A DNA stretch of 38,321 nucleotides from Planctomycetota bacterium (GTDB lineage Bacteria > Planctomycetota > Phycisphaerae > WQYP01), in NCBI GenBank assembly GCA_021805985.1, contig JAJZDN010000038.1:1-38321 (forward strand), given 5' to 3'. Shown one piece after another: positions 17,686 through 28,296 of this stretch. The stretch's first letter is position 1. Each line of letters opens with the position of its first letter. The notes beneath the pieces were generated by a model that was not told the DNA's origin, searched no databases, and saw only the letters and a program-made list of their open reading frames with translations. A program made the position numbers and the translations under genes.

Positions 17686-17826
17686 AGGAGTGAAAGGAGT
17701 TAGGAGCGGTTCCAATGAATAATGGATAATGAATAATGAATAGATTTAAGGAAGCGCTGCGCTGCTGCGAGATGCGAGGTTCCAGATTCCAGATTCCAGG
17801 TTCCAGGTTCCAGGTTCCAGATTCCC
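17686..17826 (+). repeat. Heptad-modular intergenic element, copy A
   Basis: First of four related elements. Reading rightward: a short GGAGTTAGGAG block, then AATGAAT words (four, from 17714), the mini-hairpin AAGCG-CTG-CGCTG (17752-17764), two GCGAGAT-like words, then seven TTCCAGG/TTCCAGA words (17780-17826). Every block repeats with a period of seven bases. It lies just beyond the stop codon of panC and upstream of the amt promoter. No reading frame crosses it. The rest of the gap 17505-17685 shows no other feature I can support. Confidence 0.85.
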
Positions 17827-17853
17827 GCGATGGTTCATCCAGTTCTCGGACCT

Positions 17854-18696
17854 TCAGGAATTGACTACATTATCAATCAGACGGGTTGTTCCCAATTTGG
17901 CGGCGATTAGAAATACGCAGGGGGCACCGACAGCCTTGGGATATACTTCGAGCGTTTCGGCGTGACATGGCAAAGCGTATTGCACCTCAAGTCCGGCCTG
18001 CCGGAGGTGTTCACTCATACCGGCTACCAATGCCGCTGCATCCCGCATACCGCTTTTGTATTGGTCCGTCGCCCAACTGAGGGCTTGGTAAATGCTGGCG
18101 GCGCGCGATCGCTGATCAGGGGATAAATATCGATTGCGACTGCTCATGGCCAGTCCATCAGGCTCGCGCAGGGTGGGGGCGGTGATAATTTCTACCGGGA
18201 TATTCAAATCGCGAACCATGTGCTTGAGGATCAATTGCTGCTGGAAATCCTTCTGGCCCAGAATCATGGCCGCTGGCTCAACAATACCCAAAAGTTTTGC
18301 TACAACTGTACACACGCCCCGAAAATGGCCGGGTCGAATGGCTCCGTCCAGCACGGTCCCCAACTCTCCGGGGTCAATGCTTATCGCATTGCCGGGACCA
18401 TACATTTCCTCCGGTGATGGGGAAAATACCACGTCCGCGCCCCAAGCGGTGAGATTGGCCAAATCCTGTTCAAAAGGGCGGGGATACTTATGGAAATCTT
18501 CATGAGGGCCGAATTGTGTGGGATTAACAAAAATGGATGCCGCAACAATTCCATCCGGCCCTGCTAACCTCCGTGCCATGCGCACCAGGCTTCCATGGCC
18601 TTCATGCAAGGCACCCATGGTGGGCACAAAGATCACTTTGCCGGCCGCCGAATGGCGGTACTGGCGAAATTCGGAAATGGTTTTACAAATGTTCAT
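17854..18696 (-). CDS. panC: Pantoate-beta-alanine ligase
   Basis: A 280-residue pantothenate synthetase, which joins pantoate and beta-alanine with ATP in the last step of vitamin B5 synthesis. The nucleotidyltransferase motif is in VPTMGALHEGHGSLV (H-x-G-H), with IFVNPTQFGPHEDFHKYPR, RPGHFRGVCTVVAKLL, GQKDFQQ and the second ATP motif MSSRNRYLS. The start at 18696 (MNICKTISEF) gives the standard length; the frame is open to 18747, overlapping the folK stop region. It is the last gene of the leftward run dapL, GT87-like, folK, panC, 26 bases after folK. panB and panD are not in the window. Confidence 0.95.
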   Translation of the reverse strand: MNICKTISEFRQYRHSAAGKVIFVPTMGALHEGHGSLVRMARRLAGPDGIVAASIFVNPTQFGPHEDFHKYPRPFEQDLANLTAWGADVVFSPSPEEMYGPGNAISIDPGELGTVLDGAIRPGHFRGVCTVVAKLLGIVEPAAMILGQKDFQQQLILKHMVRDLNIPVEIITAPTLREPDGLAMSSRNRYLSPDQRSRAASIYQALSWATDQYKSGMRDAAALVAGMSEHLRQAGLEVQYALPCHAETLEVYPKAVGAPCVFLIAAKLGTTRLIDNVVNS

Positions 18697-18722
18697 CCGG
18701 TTAATCTCTTGTGAATCCGTTT

Positions 18723-19208
18723 TTAAGGACACGAACCCATGGGGCATGTCCGCAGCAGCTCCATGACTGATTTTCCCATCTGCGGATGGATCAGGTTTGG
18801 TGCAATTTCCGCCATGGGCCGCAACACAAATAATCGCTCATGCAGACGCGGATGCGGAATGGTTAAGTCCGGCTTCTCCAGAATCAGATCATTATAAAAG
18901 AGAATGTCCAAGTCTATCAGGCGCGGCCCGTGGCGTATTTCACCGGTTCGAAAACGCCCCAACTTCTGTTCAACGCCGGCCAAAGCCGTCAAAAGTTCTT
19001 CGGGCGAGAGTTCCGTTGCCAGGCGTGCAGCGGCGTTGCAGTAATCTTCCTGCCCCGGCGGCCCGCCCACCGGGGCGGTGATAATAAACTGCGACACCAT
19101 TTCAACCTGTGTGCCCGGCAATGCTGCAATTGCGGCTAGCGCCGCCCGCAGATTTTCCTCCCGCTTTCCCAGGTTGCTTCCAAGTGCGATGTAGCAAATT
19201 GCGGTCAT
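18723..19208 (-). CDS. folK: 2-amino-4-hydroxy-6-hydroxymethyldihydropteridine pyrophosphokinase
   Basis: A 161-residue HPPK of typical length. It transfers pyrophosphate from ATP to the pterin intermediate of folate synthesis. ALGSNLGKREENL at the start, VGGPPGQEDYCNA in the middle and the signature RHGPRLIDLDILFYND with its metal-binding Asp-x-Asp, followed by IPHPRLHERLFVLRPMAEI, are all intact. Its ATG overlaps the TGA of the GT87-like gene in an ATGA junction, so translation is probably coupled. The membrane protein in front and panC behind share no pathway with it. Confidence 0.95.
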   Translation of the reverse strand: MTAICYIALGSNLGKREENLRAALAAIAALPGTQVEMVSQFIITAPVGGPPGQEDYCNAAARLATELSPEELLTALAGVEQKLGRFRTGEIRHGPRLIDLDILFYNDLILEKPDLTIPHPRLHERLFVLRPMAEIAPNLIHPQMGKSVMELLRTCPMGSCP

Positions 19209-20605
19209 GTAATGGGGTGTCCTGTTGAGAAAGTTCCAGCGGTTGGGTTTGCTGCATCAGGTGCTGCGGAAGGCAATGGCTGATCGTTGAAGCGTGTCGT
19301 GAAAATTATCAGCATCAGCAGCACTGAGGCCCAAAACGATACACCGATAGTGAGCATCCAGCGATGGCCGTCGGGGCCGAAAACTTTTGCGACATCCGTC
19401 GTTAAAAACATCAGAAAAGCTGCGGCGGATAAGGCGGTTAACGCGCGACGCCGTGTGATGTAAGCGATCCGCGGGTCCGACAAAATCATTCCAACGGCCG
19501 CCAGTGTCAGAATCAGTGTGACGAAATGCGGCACCCAGGTTCGTGGTGAAGCCCAGAGCATAAAAGCCGCGACCGCTCCGATTTCCAGCACATATCGGCG
19601 ATCGCGAAGTGTCGGTAAAACTTTCCGCGACCACCATAAACCGATCAGCCCGATGGTGATAAGAACCATACGAATAATCATATCGGAGGTCGGCCCCGAC
19701 ACGTTGATGACGTTTACATAATGCGCCGGATGTAATTTATCCGGGTGCATGGGAAATGCCGGCACATGGCGAATCAGCCGGGCGATGAAGACCGGTATGG
19801 ATTGCCCGACAAAATAGGTCAGATGGCCGCCCTTCAGGTAGGGCACAATCATGATTCGTGTCCACTGCCGCAACCATGCCAGGTTCTGGCTCCAGCCAAA
19901 TATGGCCGCCGGAATTAATAGCAAGCCCAGAATCAGGCCCGCCAGAATACCGCCGGCGACATGCCATTGGCGTTTCCACAAAAAATAAATGAAAAACACC
20001 AGCGGCGTAACCTTAATGCACACGGCAAACGCGATGAGAATGCCTCCCAGCCATTTCCATCCCGGGGCATCAAGCTGGGCGGCGCATAACCCCAGCGTCA
20101 GAGGAAGCAGCATAAATAAATTGGTCTGCCCTTCCTGAATATCCTGTAATGCCGGCCAGAACCAGACGGCCAAAATTAACAGAATCGCGGTAACGGACAA
20201 TTTCACGCTGGTCTGCCGGGCCATGCGATAGACCGCCCAGAATATGCCGATGGAAAAAAAATATTTGCACATCGCCCAGATGAATTCCGCATTCGGTGGA
20301 GAAAACCAGGTCAATGGCCCGAAAACAGCCAGCGTTACCGGTGGGGTCGGAAAGGTATCGCTGGTGTAGGGTACGTGGTGCTGAATAAATGGCGGCACCA
20401 CGACCATCCAGCGGTCAAAGTCGTTGACGTAACGTGTGGAACCGGTTTTTTCCCGATGGATTACCCGCGCACGCGCCTGAAAAGCCGCGACAATGGTGAC
20501 GATCAGCCCGACCGCCAGAATAATGCTGACGGCAAGTTGATGAGGGGATATTGTATTGCTTTTGGCATTCACAGTTGCAATCGATTCTTTCCTGCCGCCG
20601 CACAT
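19205..20605 (-). CDS. GT87-like (DUF2029) polytopic membrane glycosyltransferase
   Basis: A 466-residue integral membrane protein with about ten hydrophobic segments. The extracytoplasmic region after the first helix contains the acidic pair expected of polyprenyl-phosphate-dependent GT-C enzymes (YVNDFDRW), and DIQEGQTNLFMLLPL and IAFAVCIKVTPLVFFIYFLWKR are typical of the DUF2029/GT87 family. Known members are mannosyl- or arabinosyltransferases of cell-envelope glycolipids; the substrate here is unknown. Two starts are possible, ATG at 20605 and GTG at 20572, the latter with AGGAAAG upstream. It begins 12 bases after the dapL stop and overlaps folK at ATGA, so it is clearly inside an operon of otherwise metabolic genes. 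Confidence 0.8.
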   Translation of the reverse strand: MCGGRKESIATVNAKSNTISPHQLAVSIILAVGLIVTIVAAFQARARVIHREKTGSTRYVNDFDRWMVVVPPFIQHHVPYTSDTFPTPPVTLAVFGPLTWFSPPNAEFIWAMCKYFFSIGIFWAVYRMARQTSVKLSVTAILLILAVWFWPALQDIQEGQTNLFMLLPLTLGLCAAQLDAPGWKWLGGILIAFAVCIKVTPLVFFIYFLWKRQWHVAGGILAGLILGLLLIPAAIFGWSQNLAWLRQWTRIMIVPYLKGGHLTYFVGQSIPVFIARLIRHVPAFPMHPDKLHPAHYVNVINVSGPTSDMIIRMVLITIGLIGLWWSRKVLPTLRDRRYVLEIGAVAAFMLWASPRTWVPHFVTLILTLAAVGMILSDPRIAYITRRRALTALSAAAFLMFLTTDVAKVFGPDGHRWMLTIGVSFWASVLLMLIIFTTRFNDQPLPSAAPDAANPTAGTFSTGHPIT

Positions 20606-20617
20606 GTCGCGTTTACG

Positions 20618-21784
20618 CTAAAGTTTCAGCGATCCAATACGTGCAACCGCTTCGCGCAAACGGGATTCATCCACGGTCAGCGCCATGCGCAAATATCCTT
20701 CTGCCGCCGGACCAAAGCCCGCACCCGGCACGGTTACCACGTGGACCTCTTCCAGCAGGCGGTTGCACAAATCCATGGAACTTACTCCTTGAGGAGTATT
20801 TACCCAGCAGAAAAACCCGGCTGTGGGTTTGCGAAACTTCCAGCCCAGGGCCGACAAACCGCCATGGAGCGTATCGCGCCGCCGGCGGTAAATATCCATC
20901 TGCTGTTTCACATCCGGATGATCGTAATGTTCTAATGCCGCGGCTCCGGCAACCTGAACGGCATTGAATTGTCCGGAATCCACATTGCCTTTCACCTGCC
21001 CCAGGGCCGCCACCACCGCCGGGTTCCCCACCGCCCAGCCGATGCGCCAGCCGGTCATATTGAAACTCTTGGATAACGAATGAAATTCAATGGCGACATC
21101 CATCGCACCGGGCACCTGCAAAATGCTGCACGGCGGCTGCTCAAAATAAACCTCTCCATACGCCAGATCATTGGCGATGATCCAGTTGTATTGTTTGGCC
21201 ATGGCCACCGCTTTTTCATAAAAGCTTAGTGGGGCGGTTGCGGCTGTTGGGTTGTTGGGATAATTCAACCACAGCAGCCGGGCCTGCTGCCGAACATCTT
21301 CGGGGATGGCGTCTAAATCCGGGAGAAAATCGTTCTTTTCCAGCAGGGGCAGATGAAACACGCGGCCGCCGGAGAAGATGGTTCCGCTGGCATATACGGG
21401 GTAACCGGGCTGGGGCACCAGGACCACATCGCCGGGATTAATAACCGCCAGGGGTAAATGGGCGATGCCGTCCTTGGAGCCGATGGTGGTGATGATGTTT
21501 TTATCAGCATCCACGGTGGCGCCAAAACGTTTCTGCATGAATCGTGCCGCCGCCTGCCGAAATGCCGGCACGCCCTCATCAAAGGGGTAGCGGTGATTTT
21601 TTGGATCGTAAATGGCTTTGGCCATTTCATCAATAATAAATTTGTGCGTGGGCAAGTCCGGATCACCCACACCGAGGTTAATAACATCTTTGCCCGCGGC
21701 CAGGAGTGCGCGCTTTTTACGGTCAATTTCAATAAACAAATAAGGGGGCAAAGCCTGCAGGCGTTGGGACTTGGTAAACGACAT
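20618..21784 (-). CDS. dapL: LL-diaminopimelate aminotransferase
   Basis: A 388-residue fold-type I PLP aminotransferase. The start RLQALPPYLFIEIDRKKRAL, then VINLGVGDPDLPTHKFI, is the text usual in LL-diaminopimelate aminotransferases of the DapL class, which make LL-diaminopimelate directly from tetrahydrodipicolinate and bypass the DapC/DapD/DapE steps. NYPNNPTAA, NDLAYGEV and the Schiff-base motif SLSKSFNMTGWRIGWAVG (Lys) are present, with the late substrate-binding Arg in YLRMALTVDESRL. A more general aspartate or tyrosine aminotransferase role cannot be fully excluded, because motifs are shared across the class. It is the first gene of the leftward operon. Repeat element copy B stands about 130 bases upstream of its start. 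Confidence 0.85.
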   Translation of the reverse strand: MSFTKSQRLQALPPYLFIEIDRKKRALLAAGKDVINLGVGDPDLPTHKFIIDEMAKAIYDPKNHRYPFDEGVPAFRQAAARFMQKRFGATVDADKNIITTIGSKDGIAHLPLAVINPGDVVLVPQPGYPVYASGTIFSGGRVFHLPLLEKNDFLPDLDAIPEDVRQQARLLWLNYPNNPTAATAPLSFYEKAVAMAKQYNWIIANDLAYGEVYFEQPPCSILQVPGAMDVAIEFHSLSKSFNMTGWRIGWAVGNPAVVAALGQVKGNVDSGQFNAVQVAGAAALEHYDHPDVKQQMDIYRRRRDTLHGGLSALGWKFRKPTAGFFCWVNTPQGVSSMDLCNRLLEEVHVVTVPGAGFGPAAEGYLRMALTVDESRLREAVARIGSLKL

Positions 21785-21910
21785 TCAGATTTTCCTTCCA
21801 TTGCCGGGAAAAAACAAATCAGCGCTGCCGCGGTGAATATCCGCGGCACCGGGCAGATACGCCAGTGTAAGAAAGATTCAACTTCCGGTAAAGTACGCGG
21901 GTGGGGGGAG

Positions 21911-22033
21911 GAGTTAGGAGTTAGGAGTTAGGAGTTAGAAGTTAGAAGTTAGAAGTTAGAAGGCTTTTGAAGCGCTTCGCTTTTGCTAGAGGCTAGATGC
22001 GAAATGCTAAATTCCAGGTTCCAGGTTCCAGGT
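21911..22033 (+). repeat. Heptad-modular intergenic element, copy B
   Basis: The most regular copy. Four GAGTTAG words are followed by AAGTTAG words (21911-21960), a short spacer, the mini-hairpin AAGCG-CTT-CGCTT (21970-21982), then GCTAGAG, GCTAGAT, GCGAAAT, GCTAAAT (21985-22012) and three TCCAGGT words (22013-22033), all in one seven-base register. It sits in the divergent gap between dapL (-) and lgt (+), so it lies in both upstream regions. No promoter is clear in the remaining parts of that gap. Confidence 0.9.
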
Positions 22034-22100
22034 TTTTGTAACCACGGCGGGGAGGCGGGAACTGGGCGGTAATTAACTTGAACGGAGACACAATAATTTG

Positions 22101-23372
22101 ATGCTGGCTTATTACATTCAGACGCTTAATCCATTTATATGGCAATGGGGAAATTCAGGATTTGGTATCCGCTGGTATGGAACGGCCTATCTGCTGGGCT
22201 TTATCATCGCGTACCTGTTGATGAAACGCTTTATCCGCACGGGCCGTATGCTGCTGCCCATCGAGCAACTGCCGGATTTTGTGCTTTTTGTAGCGATATT
22301 CGGCGTGTTAATTGGCGGACGCCTCGGTGAGGCACTGCTGTATCGCCCCAGCATGTTTACCAATTTCTCTCCGCCGTTTCCGTACTGGGGATTATTGAAA
22401 ATTCAGGACGGCGGCATGGCCGCCCATGGCGGAATTGTCGGCGTATTTGTCGCCACGTATGTATTCGCCCGACGCCGCGGCTACCGCTTCCTGAACTTGG
22501 TGGATTGCGGTGCCATTGTGGCGCCCATTGGGATATTTTTCGGTCGCATCGCCAATTTTATTAACGGCGAAGTGTACGGCCATATTTCGCACGCGAAATG
22601 GGCGGTGCAGTTTCCCACTGAATTGATTTATCAATCGCAACCGCTGGATGCACGGATTCGCCATCTGGCGGGAAAGATTGCCGCCAAACATCCAGCCAGT
22701 GCCCATTTAATGAATCAAAATCCGGTCGCCGGAATGGTGCGCTATATCAGCCATCACCTGCAATGGCATCATCCCAGCCTGGTGCCGGCGCTGGCCCTGC
22801 ATCCAAAAGAGGAAATTATCAAGCTGGGGCTAAACGGCAAATCCGCCTTTCTCAACGCGCAACTTCAACAGATTCCGGATTTTCTCCGTAAAATTAAACT
22901 GGACGTTCAGGCCCGCCATTTGGCTGAGCAGGTGATGGTTCGCTATCCGGATCTTGCCGGCACCATACGCCGCAATCCCAACATGGAGTTAATTAATCTG
23001 GCTCGGCAAGGCAACGCTTTTGTTATTACCCACCTGCGTGAAATTCTCAACCCCCGAATTCCCTCGCAACTTATTGAAGCGTCACTGGAAGGGCTGCTGC
23101 TGTTTCTGCTTTGCTTTTTTATCGGGTCCCGATGGAAAAAGGAAGGCATTACCGCCGCCTGTTTTGCCACGTTCTACCCCCTGATGCGAATGACCGGTGA
23201 GCAGTTCCGCGCCGGCGATCAGCCCAAGCTGATTTTCGGCCATTGGATATCATTAGGCGACTTATACAGTTGGCCCATGTTCATTCTGGGCCTGATTTTC
23301 CTGATCTGGGCCATCCGCCGCCCGGCGATGGCCGCACCGGCGGGGCCGGCGGGGGAAGGAGTTAGGAGTTAG
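22101..23372 (+). CDS. lgt: Prolipoprotein diacylglyceryl transferase with a large internal insertion
   Basis: A 423-residue membrane enzyme that attaches diacylglycerol to the lipobox Cys of prolipoproteins; typical Lgt is 260-300 residues. Core motifs are intact: IRWYGTAYLLGF near the start, GGMAAHGGI (His109), GRIANFINGE (Arg149, Asn152) and GEQFRAGD (Arg370). The usual H-P-S-Q-L-Y-E is here IPSQLIEA. Between residues about 173 and 318, in what is the periplasmic head region of the Escherichia coli enzyme, there is an insertion with three imperfect repeats of roughly 35 residues (for example HPKEEIIKLGLNGKSAFL and NPNMELINLARQGNAFVI). A TTG at 22098 is an alternative start. The last six codons, GEGVRS, and the stop come from repeat element C. 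Confidence 0.92.
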   Translation: MLAYYIQTLNPFIWQWGNSGFGIRWYGTAYLLGFIIAYLLMKRFIRTGRMLLPIEQLPDFVLFVAIFGVLIGGRLGEALLYRPSMFTNFSPPFPYWGLLKIQDGGMAAHGGIVGVFVATYVFARRRGYRFLNLVDCGAIVAPIGIFFGRIANFINGEVYGHISHAKWAVQFPTELIYQSQPLDARIRHLAGKIAAKHPASAHLMNQNPVAGMVRYISHHLQWHHPSLVPALALHPKEEIIKLGLNGKSAFLNAQLQQIPDFLRKIKLDVQARHLAEQVMVRYPDLAGTIRRNPNMELINLARQGNAFVITHLREILNPRIPSQLIEASLEGLLLFLLCFFIGSRWKKEGITAACFATFYPLMRMTGEQFRAGDQPKLIFGHWISLGDLYSWPMFILGLIFLIWAIRRPAMAAPAGPAGEGVRS

Positions 23373-23473
23373 GAGCTAGGAGTTAGGAGTTAGCATGATG
23401 AAGCGCTTCGCTTTCAATGAGTAGTGAGTAATGAATAATGACTAGAAATAAGGAGTTGGAAGTTAGGTTTCAG
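23358..23473 (+). repeat. Heptad-modular intergenic element, copy C
   Basis: Five GGAGTTA/GGAGCTA words (23358-23392) and GCATGAT lead into the mini-hairpin AAGCG-CTT-CGCTT (23401-23413), then AATGAGT, AGTGAGT, AATGAAT, AATGACT, AGAAATA and two more GGAGTT-like words. The TTCCAGG block is missing here. A detached piece with the third word type (GCCAGAT GCCCGAT GCCCG) lies at 23579-23598. The first two words encode the C-terminus and stop codon of lgt. Confidence 0.85.
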
Positions 23474-23526
23474 TACTGGCGGCATTAGCACTGGTTGCAG
23501 TAAATGCAGTAACAATTAGATGTTAG

Positions 23527-23547
23527 CCGGCAGGTTTAACCTGCCGG
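23527..23547. repeat. Short perfect inverted repeat downstream of lgt
   Basis: CCGGCAGG (23527-23534) and CCTGCCGG (23540-23547) form an 8-bp stem around TTTAA. There is no T-run after it, so it is a weak terminator candidate for lgt at most. It lies between repeat element C and the tRNA-Val promoter region. Confidence 0.4.
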
Positions 23548-23610
23548 GCAAAATAGAAGCGGCAGGGCTTCCGAAGAATGCCAGATGCCCGATGCCCGTC
23601 CCGCATGTTC

Positions 23611-23639
23611 TGGACACATCCGCCGATGCTTTGTAGGAT
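23611..23639 (+). promoter_or_regulatory. Probable promoter of tRNA-Val
   Basis: TGGACA (23611-23616) and TAGGAT (23634-23639) are separated by 17 bases and lie 15 bases before the tRNA 5' end, the layout expected of a sigma-70 type promoter for a stable RNA. Confidence 0.45.
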
Positions 23640-23654
23640 AATAACCTAGTAGCC

Positions 23655-23728
23655 GGGCGATTAGCTCAGTTGGTTAGAGCGCATGCATGACACGCATGAG
23701 GTCACAGGTTCGAATCCTGTATCGCCCA
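23655..23728 (+). tRNA. tRNA-Val (anticodon GAC)
   Basis: A full cloverleaf can be drawn: acceptor GGGCGAT/ATCGCCC, D-arm with GCTCAGTTGGTTAGAGC, anticodon stem CATGC/GCATG with loop ATGACAC giving anticodon GAC, variable loop AGGTC and T-arm ACAGG-TTCGAAT-CCTGT. The discriminator base is A and no CCA is encoded. The 3' half is read antisense as the end of an integrase-like frame, which marks it as a former integration site. Confidence 0.95.
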
Positions 23729-23888
23729 TATTCTCATTTGCATATGTTTGCACACTAGTGAAAACCTCTGAATTATCACATGTTTCACCTCGGGGCTTCA
23801 TGCCATTACCCACCATTTTATGCACCTGCTGCGCCGCTTTTTGCACCGCTTTTGTACCGGGGGTATCGGCCCAAGTAACTCGGTCCAT
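23661..23888 (-). pseudogene. Relic of a tyrosine integrase C-terminus at tRNA-Val
   Basis: A 75-codon frame on the opposite strand to the tRNA. Its text KAAQQVHKMVGNGMKPRGE and the ending MGDTGFEPVTSCV is the kind of variable tail seen on planctomycete integrases; GFEPVTS is the antisense translation of a tRNA T-arm. The stop lies inside tRNA-Val. No catalytic Arg, His or Tyr motifs are found upstream, so the gene has lost its body. The frame stays open without a start to about 23955, indicating that the relic is a little longer. It lies 3' of the tRNA, the standard position of an integrase next to its attachment site. Confidence 0.6.
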
Positions 23889-24034
23889 TTGCTCATGTGA
23901 GTTCCGCGGGCTGTGGTGACTTTGATACTCATAACACTGTAATCTTGAGTATAGAACGGATTAAACTGGAGATCAAACATCCCGTAATCGACCGCTTGTT
24001 CGCCGCTCGTCAGCAAGAAGGGATCGCGGAAAAC
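23798..24034 (-). pseudogene. Decayed coding remnant between tRNA-Val and the dehydrogenase
   Basis: In another - strand frame, overlapping the integrase relic, the text EVTVFRDPFLLTSGEQAVDY and then GMFDLQFNPFYTQDYSVMSI looks protein-like but has no start with a ribosome binding site, and it changes to low-complexity basic residues before the stop. I cannot name a family. It is best read as part of the degenerate integrated segment. The remaining part of the gene-free stretch up to 24244 shows only the GGAG site of the next gene. Confidence 0.3.
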
Positions 24035-24244
24035 GGTGACTTCGCGGATGGAGGCTCATACAATGTATTCGGTTTGGCCGTTGACGCGGCCTGACCGGCC
24101 GGGTGGGGGTCTCGGTAACGCGGGCGTCCCGCCTGCTTTTGGGTTTTGGATGGAGGCAAGAGGCTTGGGTTGCAGATGGGTTCATCGCCGCTTTGTCCTG
24201 TTGGGCCGCGCTATGGCCGTGGCGGATAATCTGGAGAATAAATT

Positions 24245-25222
24245 ATGCCTTATACGTTTCTGGTCACACGCCGAATTCCGCAGGCGGGGATGGACATCCT
24301 GAGGACGGCGGGGGAGGTTGTTGTTAATGAACAGGATCGGAAGCTTGCCAGCGCCGAACTGCTGGAGATGGGAAAAAGCTGTGACGGCTGGCTTACCATG
24401 CTCACGGATATTATTGACGGTGCCCTGATCCGCCAATGCTCGAAGCTGCGCGGTATTGCCAATTATGCGGTGGGGCATAATAATATTGATATATCTACGT
24501 GTACGCAAATGCATATTGGCGTTTCCAATACACCGGACGTGCTTACCGACGCCACTGCGGAAATTGCGTTTGCTCTGATGCTGTGCACCGCCCGGCGGAT
24601 TGTGGAGGCAGATAAATTCCTGCGGTCCGGTCAATGGACCGGATGGGCACCGCTGCAATTTCTGGGTACGGATATCTGCAATCAGACTCTGGGTATTGTC
24701 GGAGCCGGACGGATTGGTTCACGGGTGGCGGAAATGGCTGCGGGATTCAATATGCGAATACTTTATGCCGGCCGCAGCCCCAAGCCGGAGTTGGAGCGCC
24801 GCACTAAGGCGATCTTCACTTCGCTGCCGCAGCTATTGCGGGAGTCGGATTTTATATCACTGCATGCACCATTGACGGCGGAAACGCGGCATTTGATCGG
24901 CGCTGCACAACTGCGGATGGTCAAGCCAGGTGCAATTCTCATTAACACGGCGCGCGGAGCGTTAATTGATGAAGCGGCTCTGGTGGAAGCGTTGCGGGAA
25001 AAGCGCATCAGGGGTGCCGGGCTGGACGTATTTGAACATGAGCCGCAGGTAACACCTGGCCTGCGTGAACTGGATAACGTAGTGTTACTGCCGCATATTG
25101 GCAGCGCCACGGAAACTACACGTGCACGCATGGCGGTTATGGCGGCGGAGAATCTTATCGCCATGGCCGCGGGCCGCCGGGCCGCCAATGCGGTCAACCC
25201 GGAAGTCTGGGATTCCAAATGA
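24245..25222 (+). CDS. D-isomer-specific 2-hydroxyacid dehydrogenase
   Basis: A 325-residue NAD(P)-dependent oxidoreductase of the D-2-hydroxyacid dehydrogenase family. The Rossmann motif is LGIVGAGRIGSRVAEMA (G-x-G-x-x-G), followed by the NAD signature and INTARGALIDEAALVEAL with the catalytic Arg, GAGLDVFEHEP with the Glu and LPHIGSATETTR with the His of the catalytic triad. Length and motifs fit glyoxylate/hydroxypyruvate reductase-like members, but the substrate cannot be fixed from sequence. GGAG lies eight bases before the start. The gene is followed after 93 bases by the GH116-like gene, possibly co-transcribed, with no evident metabolic link. Confidence 0.9.
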   Translation: MPYTFLVTRRIPQAGMDILRTAGEVVVNEQDRKLASAELLEMGKSCDGWLTMLTDIIDGALIRQCSKLRGIANYAVGHNNIDISTCTQMHIGVSNTPDVLTDATAEIAFALMLCTARRIVEADKFLRSGQWTGWAPLQFLGTDICNQTLGIVGAGRIGSRVAEMAAGFNMRILYAGRSPKPELERRTKAIFTSLPQLLRESDFISLHAPLTAETRHLIGAAQLRMVKPGAILINTARGALIDEAALVEALREKRIRGAGLDVFEHEPQVTPGLRELDNVVLLPHIGSATETTRARMAVMAAENLIAMAAGRRAANAVNPEVWDSK

Positions 25223-25315
25223 CACGTTGCTTCAATCGGATATACTGCCGATGTTCGGGGCCGGCTGGTGCTCTGAATTTACGGATATGCTCGTTGACTT
25301 TTGCAAAGGAAAGCT

Positions 25316-28144
25316 ATGGCATCTGTCTCACGTCGGCGTTTTGTTCAGGCAGTTTCGGCGGCTGGTGCGGCTTTGGCGTTGCCAAGCGTATCTTCCGCAG
25401 TGGTCCGTGCTCCGCACCGTGTCGTGGTGCACGGGCGCGATGGGGCGCTAGATGCTAAAGTGCTGGGCGACCCGGGCGATCCGGCACGTGAGGGTTTGGA
25501 AATTTCATCTCATATCGCGATGGCATCAGGTGCGCCGTTGGGCGGTATTGGCACGGGCTTTATAGAACTGCGGCCCGACGGGTGTTTTTATAAATGGTTG
25601 ATTTTCAACGCGGGATTGTGGGGCGGGAATCTGCCGGCGGGCCAGCAGGGTAACAATCCGGATATGGGGCCTCAGAGTTTGCAATTTATGGTTCGCACGC
25701 AGGAGCAGGGGGCGGATGGGCCGGCATTGCGGCGGCTCTATTTGCGGCCGCATGAAAATAATTTGTATTCTCTGGCGTATGTGCAGGATGTTGAATCGAT
25801 TCAGTATGATGCGTGGTTTCCCATGACCAGTCTGCAATACAAAGATTCCACGCTGCCTATTCGCATCAGCGCCGCAGCTTTTTCCCCGTTCTTTCCCGGA
25901 AATGCCCGCCAATCTGGTACGCCGGGTTTCAACATGGTCTTTACGCTGGAAAATACCAGCACCAAGCCGGTTGAAGTGTCTTTGTTGTCATTGTTGGATA
26001 ATCCGCTGGCCACCGGACACAAACAACGCCAGCTTATCAATACGATCCGGCAAACCGGCGGCACAACGATCCTGGATATGAATACCAAGGTGAATGCGGA
26101 AAATAAAACTGCGCTGGGCAGTATGTGTATGTCCGTGACCGGGGGGAAGCACTCGTGGATTTCGGGAACGTTCGGCCAGTACGCCGGTACCACAGGCTTA
26201 TGCAATTGGCAGACGCCGCGCCTGAATTACATGCTGGTGGATGTTTTGCAGAAATTTTTTGCCTTGGGCAAACTGCCCGACACGTCCGGAGCCACCGATC
26301 CCGCGCAGGAGTTTAAACTTACCCCACAGCAAATTGACGCTTTGACAGCGGCGGAAGCCCAGCATTGGCTGCAACGACTTTCCGGGGATGCGTTGCTGGA
26401 GCGGGTGATTACTGGTGCGCGCGCCGCTTCGCCCCATGGGCTTGAATCGGACGCGGGGCGTAAAGAAATTTTGAAGGAAATCAGCAATAATCTTTCCGGC
26501 GATCTGGCTGGGCAGCATCGGGATCGTTCCACATGGGGCACGGGTGCATTGGCCTCCAGCATTACCCTGGCCCCGGGGCAAAAAGAGGAAATCCGCTTCA
26601 CGTTAAGCTGGTACTTTCCGCACCATTTCAGTAAATGGGGCCAGGACATGGGCCACAATTACGCGAACTGGTTTTCCGATGCTGGGGAAGTTAACGCGCA
26701 CCTGGTGAAAGAATATCCCACGCATCGCAAACAAACGGAATTATTCGCCCGTACGCTGGCGGATACATCCCTGGGCAGTCCGATGGCGTTTGGCTGGTCG
26801 GGCCAGTTGAGCACGGCGGTAACCAATACATGGTGGGTTAAAGATGGCAATTATTCAATATGGGAAGGGCTGGGGTGTTGCGGTCTAAGTACGATGGATG
26901 TGGAATTTGACGCCAGCTTTTCAGTGGTGGCGCTATTCCCGGAATTAAAGCTCGCTCAGATGCGGAACATGCTCAAGTATCAGAACGCCCAAGGGCAAGT
27001 GCCGCACACCTACGACGGCGACTTTACGCATTTTGATCAGAGCGGCTGGGGGCGCGTGGATCTGAATCCGGAATTTGTCATGATGGTGCATCGTGATTAT
27101 CTCTGGACTGGGGATAAGCAATATCTTATGTACATGTGGCCCCATGTGGTCAAAGCGATGCAGTACACCGGATCGCTGGATACGAATGGGGACGGCCTGC
27201 CGGATAAAAATACGGGCTATCAAACGTTTGACCAGTGGGGCCTGCGTGGATCCCCCTCGTACATCTGTTCTTTGTGGATTGGGGCGGTGCAGGGGGCCGT
27301 GGAAATTGCTCTCGCCCTGGACCATCGGCAGGAAGCGGCCCTATGGAAACAGACGCTGGCAAAAGCCGCGGAAAGTTTTGATCACATGCTATTTAACGGC
27401 CAATATTACAGCCTGTGGGTGGATGGCGGCCAACGCGACGAGGTTTGCATGGCGTATCAGATTGCCGGGCAATGGTTCAACCATCTGATCGGCCTGCCTG
27501 CGGTTACTTCCCGTGCGCAACTGGAAACTGCTATGGGCAGTATCTTTAAATATAACTTTAGTGCGGAGACAGGCTTGCGCAATGCGTCGGTGCCGCATGG
27601 TAAACGCAATTTTCTGATTCTCGATAATCTGCAGGCGGGGGGTGTATGGTCGGGCATTGAATATGCGTTTGCGGCTTTTATGATGGACCATGGTCATTAT
27701 GCGGACGGTGTAAAACTGGTCGAGGCGGTTAATCGACGGTATTTGCGTGCTGGTCTACCTTGGAATCATGTGGAGTGCGGTGACCATTATACCCGCCCGA
27801 TGAGCAGTTGGGCCACGTTGTTGGCGGCCACGGGTTTTAAGCCGGACGTTCCCAGACAATTGCTGACCCTTACTCCCGGTGCGTCTGGAGATTTCCGTGC
27901 ACCATGGGCCACGCGGGACGGTTTCGGCCACATTAGCCGCACCGGCGGCACGTTGGCCATAACCAGTGTTTCCGGCCACATACGGTTCAAAATTCTACGT
28001 GTGAATCTGCCGGTGGTGAAGAAGGGTGCCATGATCCATGGTAAAAAGCTAGCGCAGCGTGTCACGCGTGAAGGGGAATACAGCCTCATCACATTTGATC
28101 AGCCTGTTTCGTTGTCCGCCGGAGAAACCCTGGCTATTTCATGA
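25316..28144 (+). CDS. GH116-like glycosidase (GBA2-type), Tat-exported
   Basis: A 942-residue protein resembling the bile-acid beta-glucosidase/glucosylceramidase GBA2 family (GH116). The N-terminus has a twin-arginine signal, VSRRRFVQAVSAAGAALALP, so the enzyme is probably exported folded. GGIGTGFIELRPDGCFYKWLIF begins the N-terminal beta-domain. The catalytic (alpha/alpha)6 domain has NTWWVKDGNYSIWEG, CGLSTMDVEFDASFSVVALF and TFDQWGLRGSPSYICSLWIGA; Asp639 in that last text aligns by pattern with the acid/base Asp of characterised GH116 enzymes. The C-terminus WNHVECGDHYTRPMSSWATL is also family-like. The substrate may be a beta-glucoside or beta-xyloside. The start at 25316 follows AAAGGAAAG. 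Confidence 0.82.
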   Translation: MASVSRRRFVQAVSAAGAALALPSVSSAVVRAPHRVVVHGRDGALDAKVLGDPGDPAREGLEISSHIAMASGAPLGGIGTGFIELRPDGCFYKWLIFNAGLWGGNLPAGQQGNNPDMGPQSLQFMVRTQEQGADGPALRRLYLRPHENNLYSLAYVQDVESIQYDAWFPMTSLQYKDSTLPIRISAAAFSPFFPGNARQSGTPGFNMVFTLENTSTKPVEVSLLSLLDNPLATGHKQRQLINTIRQTGGTTILDMNTKVNAENKTALGSMCMSVTGGKHSWISGTFGQYAGTTGLCNWQTPRLNYMLVDVLQKFFALGKLPDTSGATDPAQEFKLTPQQIDALTAAEAQHWLQRLSGDALLERVITGARAASPHGLESDAGRKEILKEISNNLSGDLAGQHRDRSTWGTGALASSITLAPGQKEEIRFTLSWYFPHHFSKWGQDMGHNYANWFSDAGEVNAHLVKEYPTHRKQTELFARTLADTSLGSPMAFGWSGQLSTAVTNTWWVKDGNYSIWEGLGCCGLSTMDVEFDASFSVVALFPELKLAQMRNMLKYQNAQGQVPHTYDGDFTHFDQSGWGRVDLNPEFVMMVHRDYLWTGDKQYLMYMWPHVVKAMQYTGSLDTNGDGLPDKNTGYQTFDQWGLRGSPSYICSLWIGAVQGAVEIALALDHRQEAALWKQTLAKAAESFDHMLFNGQYYSLWVDGGQRDEVCMAYQIAGQWFNHLIGLPAVTSRAQLETAMGSIFKYNFSAETGLRNASVPHGKRNFLILDNLQAGGVWSGIEYAFAAFMMDHGHYADGVKLVEAVNRRYLRAGLPWNHVECGDHYTRPMSSWATLLAATGFKPDVPRQLLTLTPGASGDFRAPWATRDGFGHISRTGGTLAITSVSGHIRFKILRVNLPVVKKGAMIHGKKLAQRVTREGEYSLITFDQPVSLSAGETLAIS

Positions 28145-28173
28145 GGCTGCGACCGCGCCCGGTGGAGTTTGGG

Positions 28174-28296
28174 ACCTGGAATTTAGAACCTGGAACCTGG
28201 AATCTGGAATTTAGCAGTTAGCATCTGGCATTCGGCATTTTGCAGGAGCGTAGCGCTTCCTTATTCTAACTTCTAGCTCCTAACTTCTAACTCCTC
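28174..28296 (-). repeat. Heptad-modular intergenic element, copy D (inverted)
   Basis: The same element on the - strand. Reading leftward from 28296: GAGTTAG, AAGTTAG, GAGCTAG, AAGTTAG, the mini-hairpin AAGCG-CTA-CGCTC (28258-28246), then GCAAAAT, GCCGAAT, GCCAGAT, GCTAACT, GCTAAAT and four TCCAGGT-like words interrupted by one TCTAAAT. It fills the gap between the GH116-like gene and pyrF. Confidence 0.85.

Follow-up and report, generated by a model that had tools for sequence, protein, structure and literature searches.

What are the short intergenic elements made of seven-base words that recur between the genes of a planctomycete contig, and where could they have come from? The stretch of DNA analysed here (the window, 38,321 nucleotides) forms contig C193 of a planctomycete MAG of 4.68 Mb, and we compared its repeats with those of the remaining genome, of related genomes and of known heptad repeat families.

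Architecture of the window copies

The earlier note had described four copies of a modular element, and all of them are present where it placed them (Table 1); their seven-base arrays were recovered by Tandem Repeats Finder. The copies are 116-141 bp long and are located between protein or tRNA genes, not in a 23S rRNA helix. At element 3, the reading frame of lgt enters the GGAGTTA array (23358-23372), which supplies the lgt stop codon (23370-23372). Rfam matches in the window were restricted to tRNAs, and no PF05635 ORF was found inside the window copies. RNA folding of the four copies was no better than that of shuffles (z = +0.16, -0.25, -0.20 and -0.89). Their ends are only loosely paired, whereas many copies elsewhere in the genome, as well as the loci of IVP (S23, PF05635) genes described below, have complementary ends able to form a stem.

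Table 1 Elements of the window and their parts
Feature	Position	Strand	Location or remark
Element 1	17696-17826	+	amtB-panC gap
Element 1, GGAGTTA words	17696-17706	+	
Element 1, AATGAAT words	17714-17742	+	
Element 1, hairpin GGAAGCGCTGCGCTGC	~17750-17765	+	
Element 1, TTCCAGG/TTCCAGA words	17780-17825	+	
Element 2	21910-22034	+	dapL-lgt gap
Element 2, (GGAGTTA/GAAGTTA)n	21910-21965	+	
Element 2, hairpin GAAGCGCTTCGCTTT	~21969-21983	+	
Element 2, GCTAGAT-type words	~21985-22011	+	
Element 2, TTCCAGG words	22012-22034	+	
Element 3	23358-23473	+	lgt-tRNA-Val gap
Element 3, (GGAGTTA)n	23358-23393	+	
Element 3, hairpin GAAGCGCTTCGCTTTC	~23400-23415	+	
Element 3, AATGAGT words	23416-23441	+	followed by second GGAGTT words
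Palindrome GCCGGCAGGTTTAACCTGCCGGGC	23527-23549	+	associated with element 3; module recurrent in many genome copies
Element 4	28166-28296	-	upstream of pyrF
Element 4, GGAGTTA-type words	28296-28264	-	
Element 4, hairpin GGAAGCGCTACGCTCC	28260-28245	-	
Element 4, ATGCCAG-type words		-	between hairpin and TTCCAGG words
Element 4, TTCCAGG words	28210-28170	-	

A single shared order of modules, as proposed in the earlier note, was not observed: in element 1 the AATGAAT words stand ahead of the hairpin, and element 3 has no TTCCAGG words. Many copies in the genome have a mirror-like layout, in which (GGAGTTA)n and (TAACTCC)n enclose one or two palindromes (CGGCAGGCAAAGCCTGCCG, for example). The picture of modules in constant order around an invariable hairpin holds only in part, given that order and words differ between copies; the hairpin varies as well.

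Tandem seven-base words that are intergenic, dispersed and of hairpin potential, with unknown function, have been described as STRR in filamentous cyanobacteria (PMC2670836). The window family likewise consists of dispersed, intergenic tandem words of seven bases. Unlike in the original definition, the host is a planctomycete and not a cyanobacterium, and the family is a composite of several words that is linked to IVP genes.

Mirror heptad arms around S23/IVP genes

In two single-contig planctomycete genomes (G112, and G298 by reading frame), GGAGTTA words directly precede a gene for the four-helix-bundle S23/IVP protein, for which the closest solved structure is 2gsc. The genome of the window has six PF05635 genes, and only two of them (L154, L155) are flanked by GGAGTTA/GAAGTTA arms. 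The left end of element 4 can be aligned over 48 columns (score 35, null mean 9.3) with the outer arm found at L154 (AGGAGTTAGGAGTTAGGAGCTAGAAGAATAAGGAAGCGCTTCGC), so that element 4, as is usual for MITEs, has terminal sequence in common with an element of this genome that carries a gene. Among 30 further planctomycete loci, which were ranked by profile score and not by their flanks, most IVP genes with frames read are enclosed by mirror arrays whose word is particular to the locus (GTGTCTG, ACACAAGA, TAGGGGT, TAGGAGT, CTGAGTTG and others). When plasmids were searched at the protein level, the matches were mainly cyanobacterial, and many of these S23 genes have arms of CAGGAGT, GGGAGTA, CAGGTGA, GTAGGGT or GGGAAAA words that are mirrored downstream. 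Altogether, the arms are built from seven- (or eight-) base words that differ between genomes and match within one locus. Some of the cyanobacterial plasmid IVP genes lie inside CRISPR-cas clusters (L194, L197, L198), either between cas10 and a cmr3-family gene or between cas6 and cas4.

The arms were quantified at 49 PF05635 loci (32 planctomycete and 17 mostly from cyanobacterial plasmids) in comparison with 344 control genes. The mean inverted-arm score across the 49 loci was 20.8 within the same locus versus 10.2 (sd 2.8) across loci. Scores above the 99th percentile of the cross-locus values were reached by 24/49 loci, compared with 0.9% of the control genes; the remaining loci, about half, stayed below this strict threshold. 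Runs at lag 7 were present at 43% of the IVP loci versus 6.4% of the controls and runs at lag 8 at 14% versus 0.9%, while no enrichment was seen at lags 4-6 or 9-12 around the IVP genes of the 49 loci. Tracts on both sides were found at 23/49 IVP loci versus 5/344 controls, and 16 of these 23 have the purine-rich tract upstream and the pyrimidine-rich one downstream.

Several word classes of the window are themselves IVP arms in the genus, most clearly GGAGTTA, AATGAAT and GTTACAG; GTGATCC and TTCCAGA words also flank genus IVP genes on both sides. No genus IVP gene was found with TTCCAGG, a main module of the window elements, on each of its two sides; the nearest word was TTCCAGATTCAAG at L244. 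Arms at several genus loci are of another type and not strictly heptad. For example, a further IVP type (L158, L159, L241, L248) has a conserved inner core between mirror arms of the GAGAGTAG type and is repeated in tandem near a tRNA gene at L158. One IVP gene (L249, G007) contains an internal stop codon and represents a decaying copy.

Comparison of filled and empty sites shows that sites of IVP elements are gained and replaced, and that the mirror heptad arms travel with the gene. In related Nostoc plasmids, site A contains a CAGGAGT-armed element at L192 and L193 and is empty at L201; conversely, site B contains a GGGAAAA-armed element at L201 and is empty at L192 and L193. Site B reads GAGGTAATG...ATGGGATTT when filled and GAGGTAATGGGATTT when empty, and an ATG stands on both sides of the insert at this one IVP insertion. 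Both empty sites are free of heptads and have intact neighbour genes; the arms therefore arrive with the gene and are cargo of the IVP element, not its target. Besides that, IVP elements have a hot spot between a PilB-like and a PilC-like gene, where three IVP types (25-35% identical between types) were found in five genomes (L154, L238, L239, L246, L250). Here, the arms consist of GGAGTTA (G000, G002), GTTACAG (G004) or AATGAGT (G003, G007) words, and the flanks are ~98% identical between L246 and L238, in the genome pair G003 and G004. In the window elements and their orthologues, these same three words replace one another as modules.

These observations bear on the explanation that the copies are plain STRR-type repeats spreading by slippage and ectopic gene conversion, with IVP genes merely landing in or near heptads. 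Orthologous copies do vary in seven-base steps, and slippage related to the polymerase footprint has been put forward for heptads (PMC4692102). We nevertheless consider this explanation unlikely, since the empty Nostoc sites show that arms came with the IVP at two sites, mirror arms match each other at their own locus but not those of other loci, and each of the three IVP types at one site brought its own words.

A link to intervening sequences (IVSs) of 23S rRNA is provided by Azospirillum AZO_p2 (L199), where an IVP gene is located inside the 23S rRNA gene and Rfam RF02541 spans the gene. Its inverted heptad arms (GACGGATGACAGAGGACGGAGGACAG and CCGTCCTCTGTCTTCTGTCATCCGTC) were read by eye; the automatic arm score missed them because the start codon had been placed too far upstream. 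IVSs of 23S rRNA have been described as selfish elements with complementary ends and S23p ORFs that are excised by RNase III, S23p being a protein without known function (PMC4990558). Those with an S23p/IVP ORF, as in Leptospira and Coxiella, resemble the present family in having a PF05635 gene between complementary ends and in being selfish insertions. In contrast, the elements described here are intergenic or intercistronic at protein genes, occur in many copies and are mostly without ORF.

Distribution and turnover at orthologous sites

In a 478 kb sample of the genome, runs with ten or more matches at lag 7 had a density of 38 per 100 kb in intergenic DNA, compared with 1.3 per 100 kb in coding DNA and none in dinucleotide shuffles. 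Further intergenic peaks appeared at lags 14, 21 and 28, with only a minor one at lag 9, and the commonest period-7 words of this sample were GAAGTTA, TTCCAGG, GGAGTTA, TTCCAGA and GTTACGG. The family extends far beyond this contig: GGAGTTAGGAGTTA has 195 sites in the genome (97 in forward and 98 in reverse orientation, versus 0 sites of the reversed control) and was found in 8/8 genus genomes. The composite of heptads followed by the GAAGCGCT hairpin was counted 96 times in this genome (control 0) and 35, 14, 7, 6, 5, 2 and 1 times in the other genus genomes. Of 391 other genomes of the phylum, outside the genus, 4 contained GGAGTTAGGAGTTAG, and the composite pattern was nearly confined to planctomycete MAGs, with one Chryseobacterium in addition. 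Carriage by phages was considered and rejected, the composite pattern being absent from viral contigs.

Two contigs of G000 (L009 and L010, on C34 and C87) contain dense clusters of elements in both orientations within 8-17 kb, including further word families of seven to ten bases (ATCTGTG, CACAGAG, CAGTATTGAT). A related design, with (ACACAGAG)n mirror arms and a AGCCCGGTCGC...GCGACCGG palindrome, was observed at L102-L108 of G192.

At orthologous gaps, the elements differ between genomes of the genus. The amtB-panC gap has no element in G002 and G005 and a different repeat in G001. The dapL-lgt site is filled in G001, G002, G003, G005 and G007, with differing word numbers or words, and empty in G006; in G007, GTTACAG words replace the GGAGTTA arm. 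A near-identical subtype of element 1 occurs twice in this gap in G003, a doubling to be read with care because the scaffold is N-joined inside such repeats (L144). The pyrF site contains an AATGAGT subtype in G001 and a GTTACAG version in G007. Base-exact empty sites for window-type copies were sought among the genus genomes, and none was usable (inner indel; N-joined scaffold). Presence and absence at orthologous gaps, spread across genomes and recovery in independent assemblies bear out the suggestion of a dispersed, possibly mobile element. Growth and shrinkage by heptads was likewise supported in that word numbers differ at the same site between genomes, for which slippage would be the underlying process.

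A role as cis-regulatory RNA or DNA element (sites for RNA-binding proteins, ribosome binding, terminator or nucleoid structure) could account for the intergenic location, and heptad arrays upstream of start codons have been proposed as translational regulators in Beggiatoaceae (PMC4679880). This role, which the earlier note had also raised as regulatory or nucleoid-structuring, gained no support: both orientations are equally common, copies occur in spacers of all types, presence is lineage-specific at orthologous genes, and folding revealed no structure beyond composition. We therefore regard it as quite improbable. Even less probable is a REP/REPIN-like nature, in which a Y1-HUH (RAYT) transposase would mobilise the copies through their hairpin. 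The genome does have seven Y1_Tnp matches and the elements do contain short hairpins, but the two intact Y1_Tnp genes whose flanks were inspected (L149 and L151, of the seven loci) are without heptad arrays or GAAGCGC hairpins, and the hairpin is not constant. An artefact of short-read assembly, as might be suspected of a fragmented metagenome bin with one related scaffold (G003) N-joined inside such repeats, is barely credible given that the same sites are filled in independent bins and that heptads are also present in complete plasmids of cyanobacteria and in two genomes that consist of one contig each (G112, G298).

Origin of the elements and implications

Altogether, the window copies are probably composite remnants without IVP, non-autonomous or dead, that derive from small mobile elements of an IVS/S23-type family, whose intact unit would, as part of the same reading, consist of a purine-rich heptad array, an S23/IVP (PF05635) gene and a pyrimidine-rich inverted heptad array. 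The earlier note thus stands in part: its dispersed, mobile element holds, its fixed order does not, and a PF05635 carrier with heptad arms had not been considered. Gene-less copies outnumber gene-bearing ones (~96 arm-plus-hairpin copies versus two GGAGTTA-armed IVP genes); as only 2/6 IVP genes have such arms, we infer the source relation. Short, non-coding, dispersed derivatives that mirror the ends of a gene-bearing element are reminiscent of MITEs and REPINs; unlike in these, the arms are tandem heptads instead of fixed terminal repeats, and no transposase is known.

One possible course of events is that loss of the gene leaves the arms and short inner hairpins, that the word number of the arms changes by seven-base slippage, and that arms of different IVP types nest and recombine, giving the composite word order. 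By analogy with 23S rRNA IVSs, mirror arms transcribed into RNA may form a stem that is cut by RNase III, and such processing could leave an insertion between genes with hardly any harmful effect. Neither a transposase or recombinase nor a rule for the target site was identified for the elements. IVP has no known catalytic activity, and host enzymes are therefore proposed for the joining step: in the least certain part of this model, IVP is predicted to bind the arms while host replication or recombination enzymes join the strands. Reverse transcription in trans, as in diversity-generating retroelements, was discarded since the genome contains no RVT_1. The Avd proteins of these retroelements share a homologous four-helix-bundle fold (PMC10053308), but here the reverse transcriptase is missing.

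Similar repeats have been reported from other bacteria. The TAACTGA repeats of Beggiatoaceae, Cyanobacteria and Bacteroidetes are also dispersed intergenic heptads with indels in seven-base steps, patchy spread and suspected mobility; in contrast to the present family, one word dominates and no carrier gene beyond a hypothetical repeat-binding protein was proposed (PMC4679880). The GGGAATC and GGGGA(T/C)T repeats of Xanthomonas and Nostoc form intergenic, length-variable heptad arrays, some of them inverted, but were studied as G-quadruplexes and reported without a link to mobile elements (PMC4692102). No mention of S23/IVP genes beside heptads was found in the STRR, TAACTGA and GGGAATC papers or in literature searches of journals available without subscription, and a search by repeat sequence gave no relevant match. 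Heptad repeats have so far been described without known function, carrier or exchange mechanism (PMC2670836, PMC4679880, PMC4692102).

Joining heptads and S23p suggests a testable role for both, namely a mobile element ended by heptad arrays. As a more tentative extension, which we hold to be somewhat short of an even chance, heptad repeats in general (STRR, TAACTGA, GGGAATC, GGAGTTA) might be arms or remnants of one ancient selfish class built on the pentameric four-helix-bundle S23/IVP protein, moving without a known transposase and with a period set by the build of the protein or the stem. The proposed link between heptads and S23p would also make 23S rRNA IVSs a single, special landing site within a far broader group of elements that is active between genes and in operons (between cas genes, for instance), and the remnant reading would explain the origin of seven-base repeats in many bacteria.
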